Origin: Desulfatirhabdium butyrativorans DSM 18734
Lineage (GTDB): Bacteria; Desulfobacterota; Desulfobacteria; Desulfobacterales; Desulfatirhabdiaceae
DNA length: 64,000 nucleotides
Reading direction: 5' to 3'
Assembly: GCF_000429925.1 (NCBI RefSeq)
Contig: NZ_KE386985.1
Span: 285,739 to 349,738, forward strand
Both the position numbers and the translations under genes were made by a program. Below are positions 42,987 to 52,562 of the stretch, one piece after another; position 1 is the stretch's first letter; the number at the start of each line of letters is the position of its first letter. The notes beneath the pieces were generated by a model. That model ran no database searches and had not been told where the DNA came from. It worked only from the letters and a program-made list of their open reading frames with translations.

Positions 42987-44177
42987 TCAGACCACGGAGA
43001 ATAAAACCGATATCAGCTTCTTGGCATCGATTCGACTCGGATCGTCTTTGGAAATCAGATCTAAGGCCAGAATTCGGATTCCCATGCATTGCAGTGCGTT
43101 GATTTCGAAGGAACCTGGATAATCCGTCCGGGTTGGATCCAGCAAAACGATATCGAGCAGATTGGGCTCGATTGCAACGATGGGCAAATCCCGGACCAAC
43201 AATCGATTGATCCAACGAATTTGTTCCAGAATCGAATATCCCCGCAATTCCGGATCGATGCCCATGTTGGGAATAAATACCTTGGGGCAAGGGTTTCGGC
43301 ACACGGCATAACCGACGCCGTGCGGCAGCAAATTCACCAGAATGCTGGAAAAGAAACTACCCATCGGAAAGCAGATCATATCCGCATCCTGGATCAGGGT
43401 GATCATTTTATCCCGGATACTCGTCGTCACCGGTTCGTAGCGGTGCAACGATCGGGTGAGAGCAATGTCGATGATTCTGGATGGAAGCGGGGCGCATTCC
43501 TTCGCGGTGATGCGGTGCTGTCCGAGGACCACCTGCCCTGTTTCCAGGGTTGCCGCAAGATGGAGGGGAGAGTTGACGACCGGTCGAACCGTTCCCCGTA
43601 CCTGGGCCAGTTTGGAATAGATGTAAATGACCGGATCGAGATGGCGATCATAATTCAAGTATCCGCCGGTCAAAACGAGATTACCGACGCTTGCGCCCCG
43701 TAAATCGAAGCAGGCGGGCATGTGATGGTTGAACACGGCCAGATGGTTGCGAATAATCTTCCGCATGGGGTGGGCAACATCGGCCATCAGGGGGTGATCG
43801 CCTCTGACCATGGCCTCGATCGTTGATCGCAGCTCCTTTGGCTCTCCTGTTTTGGGAAGACGATAGGCAAACAGGCGGTAAACTTCCGGGTTTCCCTGAA
43901 GGGACTGATCGGCAAGTGCCATCAGACGGTTTCGGATATCGCCAACTGCAGGCATGTTGAATGCATCCCGCAGAATGGCTGAACTGCCCCCCGAATCAAA
44001 AGGGGTGATGATGTGGATGGAATTGTGGGTGTAATGAATCAATTCCTGGGAAACTTCGCGGAGCGCGCTGCCCCCGCTGAAAAATAAAATCTTGGGCCCG
44101 AATTCCGGACTTTTCCGATACAGAGCGAGTTTGGCAGCGTTCGGAATGGGGATATTTTTGGTTAGCTCAACATACAT
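42987..44177 (-). CDS. CofD-like protein of the GAK system
   Basis: The 396-residue product resembles CofD/YvcK-type proteins that bind nucleotide or phosphoglycolate-type ligands: KILFFSGGSALREVSQELI at residues 29-47, ITPFDSGGSSAILRDAFNMPAVGDIRNRL, VGNLVLTGGYL and FPMGSFFSSILVNLLP. A catalytic role is not established. I start at ATG 44177 (MYVELTKN); an upstream start at 44246 would overlap the kinase gene by 19 bases. It follows the HprK-related gene in the same orientation. Confidence 0.85.
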   Translation of the reverse strand: MYVELTKNIPIPNAAKLALYRKSPEFGPKILFFSGGSALREVSQELIHYTHNSIHIITPFDSGGSSAILRDAFNMPAVGDIRNRLMALADQSLQGNPEVYRLFAYRLPKTGEPKELRSTIEAMVRGDHPLMADVAHPMRKIIRNHLAVFNHHMPACFDLRGASVGNLVLTGGYLNYDRHLDPVIYIYSKLAQVRGTVRPVVNSPLHLAATLETGQVVLGQHRITAKECAPLPSRIIDIALTRSLHRYEPVTTSIRDKMITLIQDADMICFPMGSFFSSILVNLLPHGVGYAVCRNPCPKVFIPNMGIDPELRGYSILEQIRWINRLLVRDLPIVAIEPNLLDIVLLDPTRTDYPGSFEINALQCMGIRILALDLISKDDPSRIDAKKLISVLFSVV

Positions 44178-44227
44178 GGTATCGATCCATCCAATTGGAA
44201 ATGGCTCTTTTCTCCCTGCCGTCCTGC

Positions 44228-45304
44228 TTAAAACAAATGCTTGCAACGATCGATGACTGCCTCGAAATCGACCCCGCCGGTGATTTCATAAATGGGCGTT
44301 TCCCCGAGCCGTTCGAGATAATCCATATCCGTCGGATCGTCGGGTTTGAACCCTCGGCTTCCGAGATAAAACAAACCGGTCGCTTTTTGAAAGGTGGCCA
44401 GCAAATCCTTTCGATCGTTCAAGGAAACCGTTTGCATATCCATCGGTTTATCCTGAGGCTTCCAATTGAGAATCAACAGGGCATGCAATGGGGTACAGAG
44501 CAGAAAACGGCTTTTGGGAAAGCATCGGTCGATGGGTGCATCGTATTTTTCCTCCAACCGCCAAAGCGTTTCAGCGGTCATTCCGGAATACCGTTCAATA
44601 TCATTTTCAGGCAATAACCCATGTAAATTCGGGTTGTTCAATATGGTGCCCGGATTGATCCGAGGCAGTTTGGCCACACCGTGCATGAGCAAGCGATCGG
44701 AAGTCTTTTCCAGGACCAGTCTGTCGTTGCTGACGAAATCCGCCCCTTCACGCAACAAATGAAGGCTGAGGGTGGATTTGCCCATGCCCGAAAAGCCGGC
44801 AATGGCTATACCCAATCCCCGGAAAACGACGCCGGCAGCATGGGCCAGTATGCCGCCGGCATCCAGCATCCATTGGATGTATCGGTTGTTGATGAAATTG
44901 ATGATCTGGTTGAGATTGTTTTTGCAGGGACCGATGGCGATGTGATCGCCTTCACCGAAAATGAAGACCATACCGGTCAGCCGTTTTCGGACGATTCGAC
45001 CGTCTTCCAGATCGACGTATTCTTCTTTTATACGGGTCTTACCCGGATCCGGTCTCTTGGGAATCAGGGGAAAACCGATTTCGACGGCTTCTGCTTCGTG
45101 CACGGAGATCGTGTAGGCCGGAGGGCCTTCCTCCGGTGCAAGAAACGGATGGAAGTAGGTCTGCAAACCGGAGAGAATCTCGCTGTCGTTGGTCCGAACC
45201 GCGATGGTGCACTCACCGAAGCGCACCCATAGATTCTCCAATGGGGGATAGGTGTTTCGAATGGCTTCCGCTATGGATTTGCGGTTCATGGAACGTAGCA
45301 TCAT
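44228..45304 (-). CDS. HprK-related kinase B (GAK system)
   Basis: The 358-residue protein has an HPr kinase/phosphorylase-like ATPase core with P loop GFSGMGKSTLSLHLL near residue 163 and VSNDRLVLE and KLPRINPGTIL downstream. HPr kinase phosphorylates a serine in a partner protein, but no HPr gene is near, so the target is unknown. N-terminal residues 1-120 form a separate domain. The start overlaps the ATP-grasp stop (ATGA). An upstream in-frame start exists at 45349. Confidence 0.85.
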   Translation of the reverse strand: MMLRSMNRKSIAEAIRNTYPPLENLWVRFGECTIAVRTNDSEILSGLQTYFHPFLAPEEGPPAYTISVHEAEAVEIGFPLIPKRPDPGKTRIKEEYVDLEDGRIVRKRLTGMVFIFGEGDHIAIGPCKNNLNQIINFINNRYIQWMLDAGGILAHAAGVVFRGLGIAIAGFSGMGKSTLSLHLLREGADFVSNDRLVLEKTSDRLLMHGVAKLPRINPGTILNNPNLHGLLPENDIERYSGMTAETLWRLEEKYDAPIDRCFPKSRFLLCTPLHALLILNWKPQDKPMDMQTVSLNDRKDLLATFQKATGLFYLGSRGFKPDDPTDMDYLERLGETPIYEITGGVDFEAVIDRCKHLF

Positions 45305-46209
45305 GATGCGATCCGTTTCTTCACGTAATCGAGATAGAGTTGGGCACAATCGATGTTGCAGGCTGTTTTTAGCCCCTTGAAACCACCGAATGCCGATACT
45401 TCGAACACCACCGGTCCGGCCTCCGTTTCCGCGACATCGACGCTCGTAAAATCCAGTTGAAACAATGCCTGCGCTCTTTGCGCGATTGCGATCGTCTGGG
45501 GATCTGGCGTGTATGGCACATATCTTCCACCATTTGCCGTTGTGGTGTTCCAGCTCGGTGTATCGTTTTTACGGGCGTAGGTCGCAACATATTCCCCGCC
45601 TAAAAAGACGATGCCGAGATCCCTGCCTTGCAGATTCACGCGTTTTTGCAGATAGAGAATCGGATTGTTATTTCGGAACGATTCGAGTTGGATGTAGGCA
45701 CCGGGATGGTCTTCGATCAGCTCCATTCCTCTGGCCTTGGTGGAATACAAAGGTTTCAGGACGGCTTCGCCGTATTCTTGCAGTTGGCGCAAGGCTGCGG
45801 CACTGTCTTCGGTGATGCAGGTCGGCGGCATGGGGATGTTTGCGATTCGAAGCGCAATGGTACAACTGAGCCGGTCCAGCACACGGAGGATGTGGATGGG
45901 CCGGGAGAAGATCCGCACGCCCCGGCTTTCCAGGAAATGCAGGATTTCCAATCGATCCAGCAGATTCGGAGAATAATACGGCCCGATCTTCTTGATGATG
46001 ATGGCATCGAGTGTGCAAAGATCCAGCCCGTTCCAGTGGACTATCCCCCGATCCAGATCCAGCATGATCTGTTCCATATTGATCAGCAACCGCTTGCCCG
46101 TGAAACGGGCCACCGTATCGGCAAGTCGTTCCGATGACCATCCGCCGGGATTCCCGATGACGGCAATGTTCGGTTTTTTCCGATTTCCGCCTATATCAAT
46201 TTGTGTCAT
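45301..46209 (-). CDS. ATP-grasp enzyme of the GAK system
   Basis: The 302-residue product has a RimK-like ATP-grasp fold: an N-terminal domain (IAVIGNPGGWSSERLADTV, DAIIIKKIGPYYSP), the ATP-binding AVLKPLYSTKARGMEL, and the metal-binding C-terminal VVFEVSAFGGFKGL. Such enzymes ligate a carboxylate to an amine using ATP. The substrate is unknown. It starts at ATG 46209, overlapping the stop of the PhoU-APH gene (TGATG), and is itself coupled to the kinase gene. Confidence 0.85.
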   Translation of the reverse strand: MTQIDIGGNRKKPNIAVIGNPGGWSSERLADTVARFTGKRLLINMEQIMLDLDRGIVHWNGLDLCTLDAIIIKKIGPYYSPNLLDRLEILHFLESRGVRIFSRPIHILRVLDRLSCTIALRIANIPMPPTCITEDSAAALRQLQEYGEAVLKPLYSTKARGMELIEDHPGAYIQLESFRNNNPILYLQKRVNLQGRDLGIVFLGGEYVATYARKNDTPSWNTTTANGGRYVPYTPDPQTIAIAQRAQALFQLDFTSVDVAETEAGPVVFEVSAFGGFKGLKTACNIDCAQLYLDYVKKRIAS

Positions 46210-47888
46210 CACAAGGCCTCCAAAAAGAGGATGTCTTCCGAAAACGAGAATGAGCCCCAGTCGTTTCGGTCGGCATGCGAGCGGATCTTTTCCATCAGAT
46301 AATGCGATCGCAGCACCATTTCTTTGGCGAATGCCTGATGCTGTTCAAACCGAATGGATGTGTAAAAATTTCGGCAAAGCCCCAGTGCCAGGCGCGCCTG
46401 AAACGTCGTATCCTGGTGGGTTTTCGAAAACCGGAGCAACAGACCGAAAAATTCAGCGATCATCTCGTTCAACCGTTCCCGGAGAATCGGTTCAAACGCG
46501 GGCAATCGAAACAGGGAAACCAGAAAAACGGCTGCGTCTTCAACGTAATCTCCGTCATGGGAGCGATACACATCAATGTAGTAAATCCGCTGGGCTTCGT
46601 GGTCGTAGACGATGTTGTTCACATTGAAATCCCCGTGACAGAATACGGACAGCGGGGCCTCGAGCGTCGCTTCGATTTCGGCGCATTGACGGATCAAATG
46701 GATCGTCGAGGGGATATGCAATTCGCCGAGATATTTTTCGGAACGCACCAATGCTGGATGGAGCCGGTTGCTTTCGTCGATTCTGGCAAGCAATTGTTTC
46801 ATGAATTGCACCGGAACCGGTTGCAACCGCAGGCTTCGCGCCCAGATTTCTTCGATCACCTCTTGCAGCAGGAAGAGGGCGTTTTGGACGATTTCGGTTT
46901 CAGCCGACAACAACACCTCCTCGAAGGTACATCCCGGCAAGAATTCGATCAGCAACGATGCGGTTTCGCTGGTTTCGTGATAACCGAACACACGGGGTGT
47001 CAAACCCGGGAAAAAGGATTGCCAGCGAAGCAGGTTATTTTTCTCACGGAGAATTTTGTTCTTGTTGCCTTCTTTGAAAATCCCTTGTGAATTGTCAGTG
47101 TTATCCGTTTTTGTGCCGATCAGCGAAATCCGGCATCCGGATCGCGTACCCCAGATCGACTTCATTTTGATTTTCGAAAAATCGTCCGTATATCCACATC
47201 GGCTGAGGGTTTCTTGCAGGGCCTCAAACTGATGAATCTTGATTTTTTCACCCATGATGGCGAACAACAACGCTTCTCCGATGTTTAGCAGCGAATCGCC
47301 GATTCGCTCAAGATAGCGAAAAATGAACAGACTCGTAATCAGATCGGGTGGGGCGCCTCCCTGCTGCAGCTCCTGGAGGATACGGCGAAAACACTTATTA
47401 TACAGGATATCCAGCCGGTATTCCGACCTGCAGATTTCCAGTGCATCCGAAAGGCTTCTTCCCTCGAAGGCCGGATGAATTTTCATGGCCTCTGTTTCAA
47501 TCACTTTCAGCATGGGTTGGTGGTCGAATCGCTGGATGAAGGCCGGATCGGAAAAGTATTCGACTTGTCGGGCGATGTTGACGCAGAAATCGGCGATGCG
47601 TTCCAAATTGACGGAAATCGTATGAATGGCCCGCAGCGAGTTGATTTCATTCTGATCGATGTGCTCACCGCCGTGAATCCGCGAAAAGCAGGCGTTTTCG
47701 ACAATGGTCTTCAGGTTGTCGATGTAATCATCCCGCGAGGCCATTTTCTTGAAGAAAAAGGAACCGGGCTGTTTCAACAAGTCTGATGTCGTTTGAATCT
47801 GGCCGATGATTTCGGTCCAGAGAAATTTGAAATTTTCCCGGAGTTCATCCAGTTTGCTGGAGGAATCAGGTGGATATTTGAATGGCAT
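46209..47888 (-). CDS. PhoU-aminoglycoside phosphotransferase-like fusion protein
   Basis: The 559-residue protein joins two folds. Residues 10-235 are PhoU-like helices (ISVNLERIADFCVNIARQVEYF, FRYLERIGDSLLNIGEALLF, the E/D-containing repeats that bind metal in PhoU). Residues 265-550 are a kinase of the APH/choline kinase type, with CHGDFNVNNIVYD (catalytic loop) and IYYIDVYRSHDGDYVEDAA (metal motif). PhoU proteins report phosphate status, so this looks like a phosphate-sensing small-molecule or protein kinase. SD GAGGGA precedes the ATG; the gene overlaps the second amphi-Trp gene. Confidence 0.8.
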   Translation of the reverse strand: MPFKYPPDSSSKLDELRENFKFLWTEIIGQIQTTSDLLKQPGSFFFKKMASRDDYIDNLKTIVENACFSRIHGGEHIDQNEINSLRAIHTISVNLERIADFCVNIARQVEYFSDPAFIQRFDHQPMLKVIETEAMKIHPAFEGRSLSDALEICRSEYRLDILYNKCFRRILQELQQGGAPPDLITSLFIFRYLERIGDSLLNIGEALLFAIMGEKIKIHQFEALQETLSRCGYTDDFSKIKMKSIWGTRSGCRISLIGTKTDNTDNSQGIFKEGNKNKILREKNNLLRWQSFFPGLTPRVFGYHETSETASLLIEFLPGCTFEEVLLSAETEIVQNALFLLQEVIEEIWARSLRLQPVPVQFMKQLLARIDESNRLHPALVRSEKYLGELHIPSTIHLIRQCAEIEATLEAPLSVFCHGDFNVNNIVYDHEAQRIYYIDVYRSHDGDYVEDAAVFLVSLFRLPAFEPILRERLNEMIAEFFGLLLRFSKTHQDTTFQARLALGLCRNFYTSIRFEQHQAFAKEMVLRSHYLMEKIRSHADRNDWGSFSFSEDILFLEAL

Positions 47889-48165: not shown

Positions 48166-49356
48166 TCACTGTGGATCGGTTTTGGGCATCTCTTCACCCA
48201 AACGGGCTTTGTATTCCTCGATAACGCATTTTCGGCTCATGTTGGCCGTAATCAGAGCCTTTCGAATGGGAATTTCTTCCCATGCCGGCTGAACGCCGAT
48301 CTCTCGAGCGGCCTTTTCAGGGTCTTGTTTATCGACGTCCCGTATTTTTTCCCCCATGTGGGTGTCATCCCCCATAAAGAGCAGCAGCCTTTTGCTGGAG
48401 CGTATTTGAACGGCGTTTTTCCGGTTGACCACGGAAATCAGAAATTCCGTATAGCGACGGGACTGCGGATTCCAGATTTCATAGCCATCCACATCGTAAT
48501 CTGCGAGCAAAATGGGCCAAAACTGTTCGGGATGGGGAATGACGATGCCGCCGCCTAACGATCGGACTTCTTCAATAATCTCCGATGTCCGGTAGAAATA
48601 TCGCATGGGGAATTGGGATTTGACGATTTGTTTGACAGCGTGCAAAAAAATCTGGGCGCGATTGATCCATGCATCTCCATATTCCGGTCGATATTCATCC
48701 AGAAAATCCCGCAACAGCTTGTTCTTGAACACTTCAATCGGGATTTTGTCATAATGATGTCCGATTAACAGCGACAGTTTCTTCATCTGTGCCTGTACAA
48801 ACCGGATGCATTCGTCGTTTGCACCGGTTTCGGTAGCAGCAAGCTGAATACGGCTTTCGTTCGGCTTGATCAGCGTATCGAGCAAGTCGTTCATCTGATG
48901 CTGACGGTATTTTAGCGTATATGCGAGCATGGACTTGAGAACATGAGCGGATTGGACCCGGCGTTCATGAAAATGCAGCAGCAATTGCACCTTCTGATTG
49001 AATCCTTTGGAGTAAGCATCGATTTCGACCCCTGCATATTCGTGAAAGCACAGCAATTCATTGTGTTGGGTGGGGATGATCAACGACTTTTTCATATTGG
49101 GGAACGTATTGTGGATTCGCTGCTCGACCAGTTCCAAAGGAATATGTTCCGGATGCCAATGAACGGCCAGGACGGTTTCTTGCCGGGGATACAGGGTGGC
49201 AGGGTTGACGATGCGATCGACCTGTTCAGACGACAAACGGGTCGTTGTAATTTTGGCGAAAATCGCTTCGTCGTTTTCCGTGAGCTCTTCGGAAAACATG
49301 CGGGAAAATTGCGGATTCAAGGGAATACATTCAGATTTGGGTTTCACCAGGACCAT
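48166..49356 (-). CDS. PHP-like metal-dependent hydrolase, GAK cluster
   Basis: The 396-residue protein is unknown to me by name, but carries histidine-rich motifs like those of PHP phosphoesterases: HWHPEHIP near residue 67, IIPTQHNELLCFHEYAGVEID, LLLHFHERR, IVIPHPEQFWPI and MGDDTHMGEK near the end. These would give a multi-metal site. GGGAGG precedes the ATG. Its place between the XXXCH and amphi-Trp genes suggests it removes phosphate from a product of this cluster; that is inference. Confidence 0.6.
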   Translation of the reverse strand: MVLVKPKSECIPLNPQFSRMFSEELTENDEAIFAKITTTRLSSEQVDRIVNPATLYPRQETVLAVHWHPEHIPLELVEQRIHNTFPNMKKSLIIPTQHNELLCFHEYAGVEIDAYSKGFNQKVQLLLHFHERRVQSAHVLKSMLAYTLKYRQHQMNDLLDTLIKPNESRIQLAATETGANDECIRFVQAQMKKLSLLIGHHYDKIPIEVFKNKLLRDFLDEYRPEYGDAWINRAQIFLHAVKQIVKSQFPMRYFYRTSEIIEEVRSLGGGIVIPHPEQFWPILLADYDVDGYEIWNPQSRRYTEFLISVVNRKNAVQIRSSKRLLLFMGDDTHMGEKIRDVDKQDPEKAAREIGVQPAWEEIPIRKALITANMSRKCVIEEYKARLGEEMPKTDPQ

Positions 49357-50337: not shown

Positions 50338-51393
50338 CTATATTTGGTCCGGATATACAAAAATCTGGAGATGGGATCCCGTCACCCGGCTTCTTCCCGT
50401 ATAGAGAAATATGCCAAGGGCGATGCCTTCGAGAAAGAGAAGCACCTGTGGACTCCACAAGGCTTCGAGCCCGACAAGAATATCCAGGGGAAGATCGCTG
50501 CCTTGGACAGGGGAAGCGAAGACAATGAGAGCAGCCAAGGGGATCGATGCGAGCGAGAGCCACTGATATGCCGTGATGAAACCGACCCCTCGAAAATCCG
50601 CTCGAAAAAATTCGGATATCCAGCGCCAGAGCTTTTCGACGCAAACAGCAATCAGGAATGCCGTCGAAAAATTGCCGTTCAGGTGGAAAACCATGGAAAC
50701 GCATCCGGTAAGAGAAAGGACGATGCAAGTCATGGCTTGAACCGGCACCACCGCTTGACCATCCAGGTGATGGGCGTAAGCGATTTTCTTCGATTTTCCG
50801 GTGAACACAAAGCAAAATCGGCTGAAGATGCGTTGCATCCGGACGGGGTAGCTTGCGATCGGCCTGCCGTAACAGCATCCGAAACTGATACAGGCAAGAC
50901 GGCCGATGCTCTCGCCGAAACAGTATGCAATGCTCAATGCCGACATCACCGGCAACAGCGGAAGCGAAAGGCCATCAGGTCGCTCGGTGGCGATGTTGAT
51001 CCCCAAAACGATCATGGGCGCAAACACCATTCCGGCAAAAGCCGCACCGGCCACCGTGAAGGTATTGGGCTTGCCCTCGATGAACCGGGCGATGATCTTT
51101 GCTGCCGGCAGGCAAAGAATCGAAATCAGGAAAATCAATGCCATCCATTGGTTTCTCGGAACGCCTCCGGTTGCCAGCAGCAGGATCAATATGGCGGCTG
51201 CAAAGGTGTAGGCCAATGCATTGAACACGCCGTAAAACGTCAGATTCAGTCCGCTCCAGCTCCCTGAATCCATCTGTTTGTCCGGAATGACGGCAAACAC
51301 TTGCCAGCGTTCCCGAGGCAGGTGGCCAAAACCCCAGGCCAGCAATCCGGTGAGGCTGCAGATCAGAACAGCCAGAAAAATGAAATTGTGCAT
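50338..51393 (-). CDS. Lgt-like multispanning membrane protein
   Basis: The 351-residue protein resembles prolipoprotein diacylglyceryl transferase: about eight membrane segments and GESIGRLACISFGCCYGRP near residue 172, like the Lgt signature around its essential Arg. It is not the housekeeping Lgt, being longer at the N-terminus and sitting in a different cluster, so it may move a lipid moiety onto another acceptor. AAGGAGG sits five bases before the ATG at 51393. It follows the phosphatidylserine decarboxylase gene. Confidence 0.7.
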   Translation of the reverse strand: MHNFIFLAVLICSLTGLLAWGFGHLPRERWQVFAVIPDKQMDSGSWSGLNLTFYGVFNALAYTFAAAILILLLATGGVPRNQWMALIFLISILCLPAAKIIARFIEGKPNTFTVAGAAFAGMVFAPMIVLGINIATERPDGLSLPLLPVMSALSIAYCFGESIGRLACISFGCCYGRPIASYPVRMQRIFSRFCFVFTGKSKKIAYAHHLDGQAVVPVQAMTCIVLSLTGCVSMVFHLNGNFSTAFLIAVCVEKLWRWISEFFRADFRGVGFITAYQWLSLASIPLAALIVFASPVQGSDLPLDILVGLEALWSPQVLLFLEGIALGIFLYTGRSRVTGSHLQIFVYPDQI

Positions 51394-51452
51394 CGCATCC
51401 TCCTTGAAGGTATTGTCCTTCGGCAAACACGGCCAACAGGCGCCAACCCCTC

Positions 51453-52562
51453 TTACAGACCAGCCTCGTTTGTAATCGTCATACCAGGGCACTTTTCGCC
51501 AGACATTTCATGAAACAGGTAATGGGGGACATCGATGGGATGCGCTATGGTTTCGCGGTTCGCAGAAGCGATATCGGAACGGACGAGCACGTCCGTTTCC
51601 ACCAGATGACAACCGAAACCGATGCTGTAGCGGCTGCTCACATCCTGACGCCATTGGTTCTGCAGCAGATCGGATGAGAAGCGGATACGGTCTTTTTCGA
51701 AAATCAGCAGGGTCGTCGAACTCCCCGGTCTGAAAAGGCTCTTGGGTTGCCCTTTTCGGACGAACATACCGGAAGAGATGGGCTTGGGCGATTCATAACG
51801 CTTATCGCTGTAACATTGAACGATGTCGCCGATCATCAGGGCGGCGATTTCGATTATGGCGACATAACCGATACCGGTTCCATCGGCGACGTCCGTATCG
51901 ACAATACTGACGGTTCTGCGGTTCTTGGATAAGGGGGTGACTGCCTGAATGGCGGCCGTCGGATTGCAGGCGTGATACAGACCGGAGATATCATAGATAT
52001 CCGCTATATAACCCGATACGGGCATGTGGTTGTAGTGGTATTTGTCGGGCGTCAGGCGAAAGACGGCGAAATCGCCTCCCCGGAACAGCGCCCGCCATTC
52101 GGGGTGATGCAATCCGAGCAGTTCGTCGTATTCGAACAATTTATCCTTGATGTGAAGGCTGCTGTCGGTTGAAAACGAGCCGACAAGTACTCGGGCATCC
52201 GATGGCGATACGATGGCGTTCTGGTTTTCGTTCATTGGGCGGCATTCCCAATAGCGGATCTGACGTTCGAACAATTCGCGAAATGTATTCATCCTTTGGA
52301 TATCCTTTACGAATTCGGTTTCATTGATTTTCAGGGAACAAACGGTGCGCCTGATGTGTTCGGGGTGAATGGGGCGCATGAGGTCATAGTGGAACCAGCC
52401 CAGGAGCTTGGAAAACCTTCCCGAAACAAGCGCCCGGAACATCGCACCGGGTCTTTCCCGAAGCCGGTTGTACATCCAGAATATCACCCGGTCTCCAAGC
52501 AATGTTTCGTTTTGGACGGCCCCGGTTGAGCGATCGACATACTGATGCGGTAAGGCCCTCAT
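51453..52562 (-). CDS. Phosphatidylserine decarboxylase family protein
   Basis: The 369-residue product matches the phosphatidylserine decarboxylase family (PF02666): the central VSPSDARVLVGSFS, FRLTPDKYHYNHMPVSGYI, and the cleavage region FRPGSSTTLLIFEK, where the Gly-Ser-Ser would yield the pyruvoyl group. It makes phosphatidylethanolamine, or decarboxylates a related lipid. It starts two bases after the stop of the 808-residue gene, so it is coupled to it, not to a phosphatidylserine synthase gene. Confidence 0.85.
   Translation of the reverse strand: MRALPHQYVDRSTGAVQNETLLGDRVIFWMYNRLRERPGAMFRALVSGRFSKLLGWFHYDLMRPIHPEHIRRTVCSLKINETEFVKDIQRMNTFRELFERQIRYWECRPMNENQNAIVSPSDARVLVGSFSTDSSLHIKDKLFEYDELLGLHHPEWRALFRGGDFAVFRLTPDKYHYNHMPVSGYIADIYDISGLYHACNPTAAIQAVTPLSKNRRTVSIVDTDVADGTGIGYVAIIEIAALMIGDIVQCYSDKRYESPKPISSGMFVRKGQPKSLFRPGSSTTLLIFEKDRIRFSSDLLQNQWRQDVSSRYSIGFGCHLVETDVLVRSDIASANRETIAHPIDVPHYLFHEMSGEKCPGMTITNEAGL

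Follow-up and report, generated by a model that had tools for sequence, protein, structure and literature searches.

A single gene of Desulfatirhabdium butyrativorans DSM 18734 truly joins a PhoU domain to a complete kinase of the small-molecule type that is predicted to be apparently active, and this fusion, which is uncharacterised, is a fixed and conserved part of the GAK operon found in sulfate-reducing bacteria. The gene is located at 46209..47888 on the reverse strand of the 64,000-nucleotide stretch of contig NZ_KE386985.1 analyzed here (the window). It starts with ATG and encodes a PhoU-APH protein of 559 aa, for which Pfam and AlphaFold2 delimit a PhoU part (residues ~10-215), a connecting helix (218-230) and a kinase part (239-555). 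Both Pfam domains score above their gathering thresholds: PhoU (PF01895) over two stretches with E 5.8e-20 and 71.9 bits versus 23.5, and APH (PF01636) with E 7.5e-8 and 32.8 bits versus 23.2. The motifs CHGDFN and IDVYRSHDGDY occupy residues 417-422 and 438-448, respectively. The initial annotation had proposed a PhoU domain and an APH-type kinase in one chain, and the two Pfam matches together with the presence of both folds in the predicted structure bear this out. It had also considered a frameshift or mis-assembly joining two separate genes, for which we found no supporting point. This explanation is ruled out by 80 full-length relatives that repeat the PhoU-then-kinase order in other genomes, from independent assemblies, and its probability is negligible.

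The AlphaFold2 model of the fusion, built on an alignment of 72 sequences, is one confident two-domain chain (mean pLDDT 92.7, pTM 0.79), the mutual placement of the two domains being less certain than each domain. Solved PhoU structures align with residues 6-224 (Z 23-25.5), the best match being 4q25 (Z 25.5, rmsd 1.9 A, 208 residues), and the two three-helix repeats of solved PhoU are present in the model. The N-terminal part is thus predicted to fold like PhoU, as initially proposed. About residues 193-559 match small-molecule-kinase and APH structures at Z 18-21.5, among them 5-methylthioribose kinase (Z about 21), PsiK (20.9), maltokinase (20) and APH(3')-Ia (18.7). A profile search of PDB sequences returned the same two families. 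In the kinase part, K272, E282, H418, G419, D420, N422, N425 and D439 are invariant in the 72 fusions. In the PhoU part the same holds for D53, E64, E96, D100, E156, D160, E194, R195, D198 and N202, and D57 (71/72) and N104 (69/72) are near-invariant. From established family knowledge, we take these residues to be the Lys, Glu, HGDxxxxN and Asp of the kinases and the metal motifs of PhoU. The segment 240-265 was originally considered as a linker. A connecting stretch is indeed present, but it is not a mere linker, part of it being strands of the kinase N-lobe. The stretch 216-260 is among the most conserved parts of the protein and consists of helix 218-230 followed by beta1 (240-246), the glycine loop and beta2 (252-259) of the kinase. 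The segment 239-260 has the highest conservation of the five fusion regions compared, with G247 found in 71/72 sequences and S250, G251 and C252 in all 72. A flexible joint is therefore ruled out. Model confidence is lower in the ten-residue blocks 241-250 (67) and 261-270 (72). Two fusions (L010, 1498-3282, reverse strand, and L076, 7598-9370) carry an insertion inside the PhoU part, apparently a PhoU repeat that has been duplicated in part.

The operon of the window lies entirely on the reverse strand, and its genes overlap in order. It comprises a GAK system XXXCH domain protein (TIGR04358; 49400..49945; 78 bits, cut-off 40), a PHP-like metal-dependent phosphoesterase assigned from its fold model and ligand residues (48166..49356), an amphi-Trp domain protein (TIGR04354/PF20068; 47866..48141), the fusion, a GAK system ATP-grasp enzyme (TIGR04356; 45301..46212; 434.7 bits, cut-off 300), an HprK-related kinase B with Walker A motif GFSGMGKST (TIGR04355; 44228..45349; 469.6 bits, cut-off 200) and a GAK system CofD-like protein with secondary similarity to CofD/YvcK (TIGR04357; 42987..44246; 521.6 bits, cut-off 340). 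All five GAK models are thus found above cut-off. Since the amphi-Trp gene overlaps the start of the fusion by 23 nt, and the GTG start of the ATP-grasp gene overlaps its stop by 4 nt (GTGA), these genes look translationally coupled. Outside its own model, the ATP-grasp enzyme best matches the methanopterin glutamate ligase MptN (E 4.5e-39). In B. subtilis, YvcK is linked to the HPr-like Crh, and the presence of the HprK-related kinase B beside the CofD/YvcK-like protein (42987-45349) recalls this link. No PADLOC match was found among five operon proteins, and a role in anti-phage defence was rejected. Upstream of the operon, an LGT-like protein (PF01790) and a phosphatidylserine decarboxylase-like protein are encoded on the reverse strand at 50338-52562. 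Homologues of this pair also flank the operon at three other loci (L080, L086 and L087), and the pair may be connected with changes in phospholipids when phosphate is short. In a literature search with thin coverage of subscription journals, no paper was found that names or describes the GAK operon or the fusion. The GAK genes are known in that they bear NCBIfam names; the fusion scores above the cut-off of no NCBIfam model of release 20.0. Uncharacterised two-domain entries of this kind very probably exist in public databases already.

The PHP-like protein has no match by sequence in Pfam, NCBIfam or the PDB. Its predicted structure (pLDDT 92.7) matches 3o0f (Z 16.7), RNase AM (16.1) and 2yb1 (15.4), and H66, H68, H98, H128, H275, D330, D331 and H333 are invariant in 51 sequences, forming ligand motifs such as HxH (residues 66 and 68) and GDDxH (residues 329-333). 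Given this fold and these invariant ligands, on which the assignment rests, the neighbour of the fusion is probably a metal-dependent phosphoesterase.

Among 57 relatives, nine genomes encode a full-length fusion and two more have pieces of it at contig ends. The GAK ATP-grasp enzyme was found above cut-off in 10 of these 11 genomes and in none of the other relatives. Ordinary phoU is also present in fusion-bearing genomes, so the fusion is not their sole PhoU. At the phylum level, the GAK ATP-grasp enzyme is above cut-off in 23 of 394 genomes, and the fusion (E < 1e-180) is found in the same 23/23, a co-occurrence with a hypergeometric P of about 5e-32 when the relatedness of the genomes is ignored. 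Two genomes (G042 and G315) have two copies of both. In a further genome, a second GAK ATP-grasp copy (G005:C55:80351-81208) lies on the other strand some 26 kb away from the main operon, and no second fusion was found in that genome. The kinase half had no stand-alone relative at E 1e-20 or better in the 394 genomes, the matches below the fusions being only stand-alone PhoU proteins. A scan of named genomes provided the 80 full-length fusion loci kept here, which are 42-61% identical and mostly from sulfate-reducing Desulfobacterota. Fusions also occur in single metagenome bins assigned to Zixibacteria, Eisenbacteria and Spirochaetia, where transfer or a binning error may explain their presence.

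Neighbours were counted at the 49 loci whose flanks exceed 7 kb on each side, with profiles made from the window proteins, of which the short amphi-Trp profile gives spurious extras. The fusion is accompanied by amphi-Trp at 47 loci, ATP-grasp at 46, PHP at 46, HprK-B at 43, XXXCH at 39 and CofD-like at 33. The common order is XXXCH, PHP, amphi-Trp, fusion, ATP-grasp, HprK-B and CofD-like, with few swaps and often a second amphi-Trp gene. In one genome (G295), the operon is split, with XXXCH/PHP/amphi-Trp/fusion at one site and ATP-grasp/HprK/CofD at another. This fixed operon and the co-occurrence with GAK stand against the idea that an antibiotic-resistance phosphotransferase was fused to PhoU by chance. 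Such an idea could be based on weak matches to APH(3') models, but the score of 32.9 bits versus the cut-off of 205 bits for NF033068 leads us to reject a resistance identity for the fusion, and a chance event of this kind is very improbable.

As most of the closest solved folds belong to small-molecule kinases, a small metabolite is weakly favoured over a protein as the putative substrate. An alternative is that the kinase phosphorylates the amphi-Trp, XXXCH, CofD-like or a PhoR-like partner in a signalling process similar to that of protein kinases. The operon indeed encodes several small conserved proteins and, besides the fusion, a kinase of the HPr-kinase type, but most of the nearest solved folds are those of small-molecule kinases, with the reserve that a fold does not decide the substrate, and we consider a protein substrate improbable.

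The link of the fusion to phosphate is partly supported, with independent support from genome neighbourhoods. At nine of the 80 loci, pst genes are located just upstream of the operon and in the same direction. A complete pstSCAB-phoU set is found beside the operon at three of these (L036, L056 and L079) and parts of it at six (L033, L065, L072, L085, L097 and L098), the L056 set and others having been identified with Pfam. In L036 and L085, the open frame of phoU overlaps that of XXXCH. Three more loci (L040, L045 and L076) have pst-like genes with a less clear placement; within the flanks covered, none was found at 68 loci, nor was a pst gene found among the flanking genes examined in the window. 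The nine pst-linked loci are scattered over the tree of 81 fusions, where at least six changes on supported branches are needed, so that the linkage does not stem from one inherited event or has often been lost. Canonical phoU occurs at seven loci versus about 0.4 expected, a rough figure that assumes 1.5 phoU per 4.5 Mb. Pho boxes of the E. coli type showed no excess over shuffles upstream of the operon; those of Desulfobacterota may differ, which makes this a weak negative. A phosphate-limitation study of D. alaskensis G20 reported raised fitness for the phoU homolog Dde_2835 after 15 days of starvation (PMC5193443). As this homolog is not assigned to the fusion, its fitness was kept out of the evidence.

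These data can be read in terms of a direct control of the kinase. The fusion would be an active phosphotransferase of the APH/choline-kinase fold whose activity is set by the covalently attached PhoU domain, such that phosphate status, or metal-bound PhoU, would control the kinase directly. The kinase would phosphorylate a substrate, and the neighbouring PHP phosphoesterase would remove what it adds. Judging from residues, predicted folds and gene order, we see the chances of this reading as evenly balanced. Together with amphi-Trp, fusion and PHP would constitute a core cassette that in most genomes may work with the ATP-grasp/HprK-B/CofD half. Six genomes of one family among the 394 scanned are relevant here, with a divergent fusion (L101-L106; E 1e-128 to 1e-143) and no GAK ATP-grasp enzyme. 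Amphi-Trp accompanies the fusion in all six and PHP in 5/6, no other GAK gene was found in the stretch read in these genomes, and in one annotated neighbourhood the upstream flanks are housekeeping genes. That PHP, amphi-Trp and the fusion form cassettes without the other GAK genes indicates that these three are the core. The six divergent fusions keep all the kinase residues listed above, and their first PhoU repeat is without D53, D57 and E64. This loss means that the metal site of the first repeat is not always needed, and the divergent proteins are possibly a kinase module that no longer needs it. That all these kinase residues are kept even where the first PhoU metal motif has been lost points to catalysis as the unchanging function of the fusion, with PhoU sensing as the one that can be adjusted.

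A competing explanation, less probable than direct control of the kinase yet to be taken seriously, is that the PhoU domain has only a structural or docking role, by dimerising or by binding PstB, amphi-Trp or other GAK proteins. The kinase would then run a biosynthetic step of the GAK product without sensing phosphate, while the MptN/RimK-like ATP-grasp ligase and the CofD-like transferase do other steps. The proximity of these two enzymes to MptN and CofD/YvcK is in line with such a pathway, as is the fact that six relatives lack the repeat-1 metal motif. Conversely, none of the 72 aligned GAK-type sequences departs from the PhoU ligand motifs, pst linkage is repeated, and the small cassette occurs in some genomes without the biosynthesis-like enzymes, all of which argue against a purely structural or docking PhoU domain. 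A bolder form of direct control by PhoU, which we hold to be somewhat unlikely, is a self-contained cassette in which the PhoU-controlled kinase and the opposing PHP phosphoesterase would make and break a phosphorylated messenger or cofactor precursor, bypassing PhoR. If true, PhoU output would not run through the PhoR histidine kinase, and the GAK enzymes would be the downstream pathway. The way in which PhoU signals phosphate or metal status has yet to be settled. In the fusion, such a domain is attached to an assayable enzyme whose operon adjoins pst in several lineages, which makes PhoU output directly testable in vitro. The fusion also offers a tangible entry point to the GAK operon of sulfate-reducing bacteria, which is uncharacterised.

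Compared with known systems, the window operon corresponds to the GAK system of NCBIfam (TIGR04354-TIGR04358), all five models being found on one strand in overlapping order. It differs by the PhoU-kinase and the PHP-like protein, neither of which reaches the cut-off of a release 20.0 model. The fusion shares with PhoU (PF01895, TIGR02135; 4q25, 2i0m, 1t72, 1sum) the six-helix, two-repeat fold and the D/ExxxD and ERxxD metal-ligand motifs. Unlike PhoU, it remains below the cut-off of the TIGR02135 equivalog (68.2 versus 130.25 bits), carries a kinase, is located apart from pst in most genomes and coexists with ordinary phoU. The Lys, Glu, HGDxxxxN and second Asp are common to the fusion and to APH/5-methylthioribose kinase-like enzymes (PF01636; 2olc, 4ej7, PsiK, maltokinase), from which it differs by its N-terminal PhoU domain and in not being an APH(3') equivalog. 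Finally, the PHP-like partner has the fold and the HxH/DxH ligands of the PHP phosphoesterases 3o0f, 2yb1 and RNase AM, and is distinguished from them by the lack of a sequence-profile match and by a helical insert at residues ~138-247.
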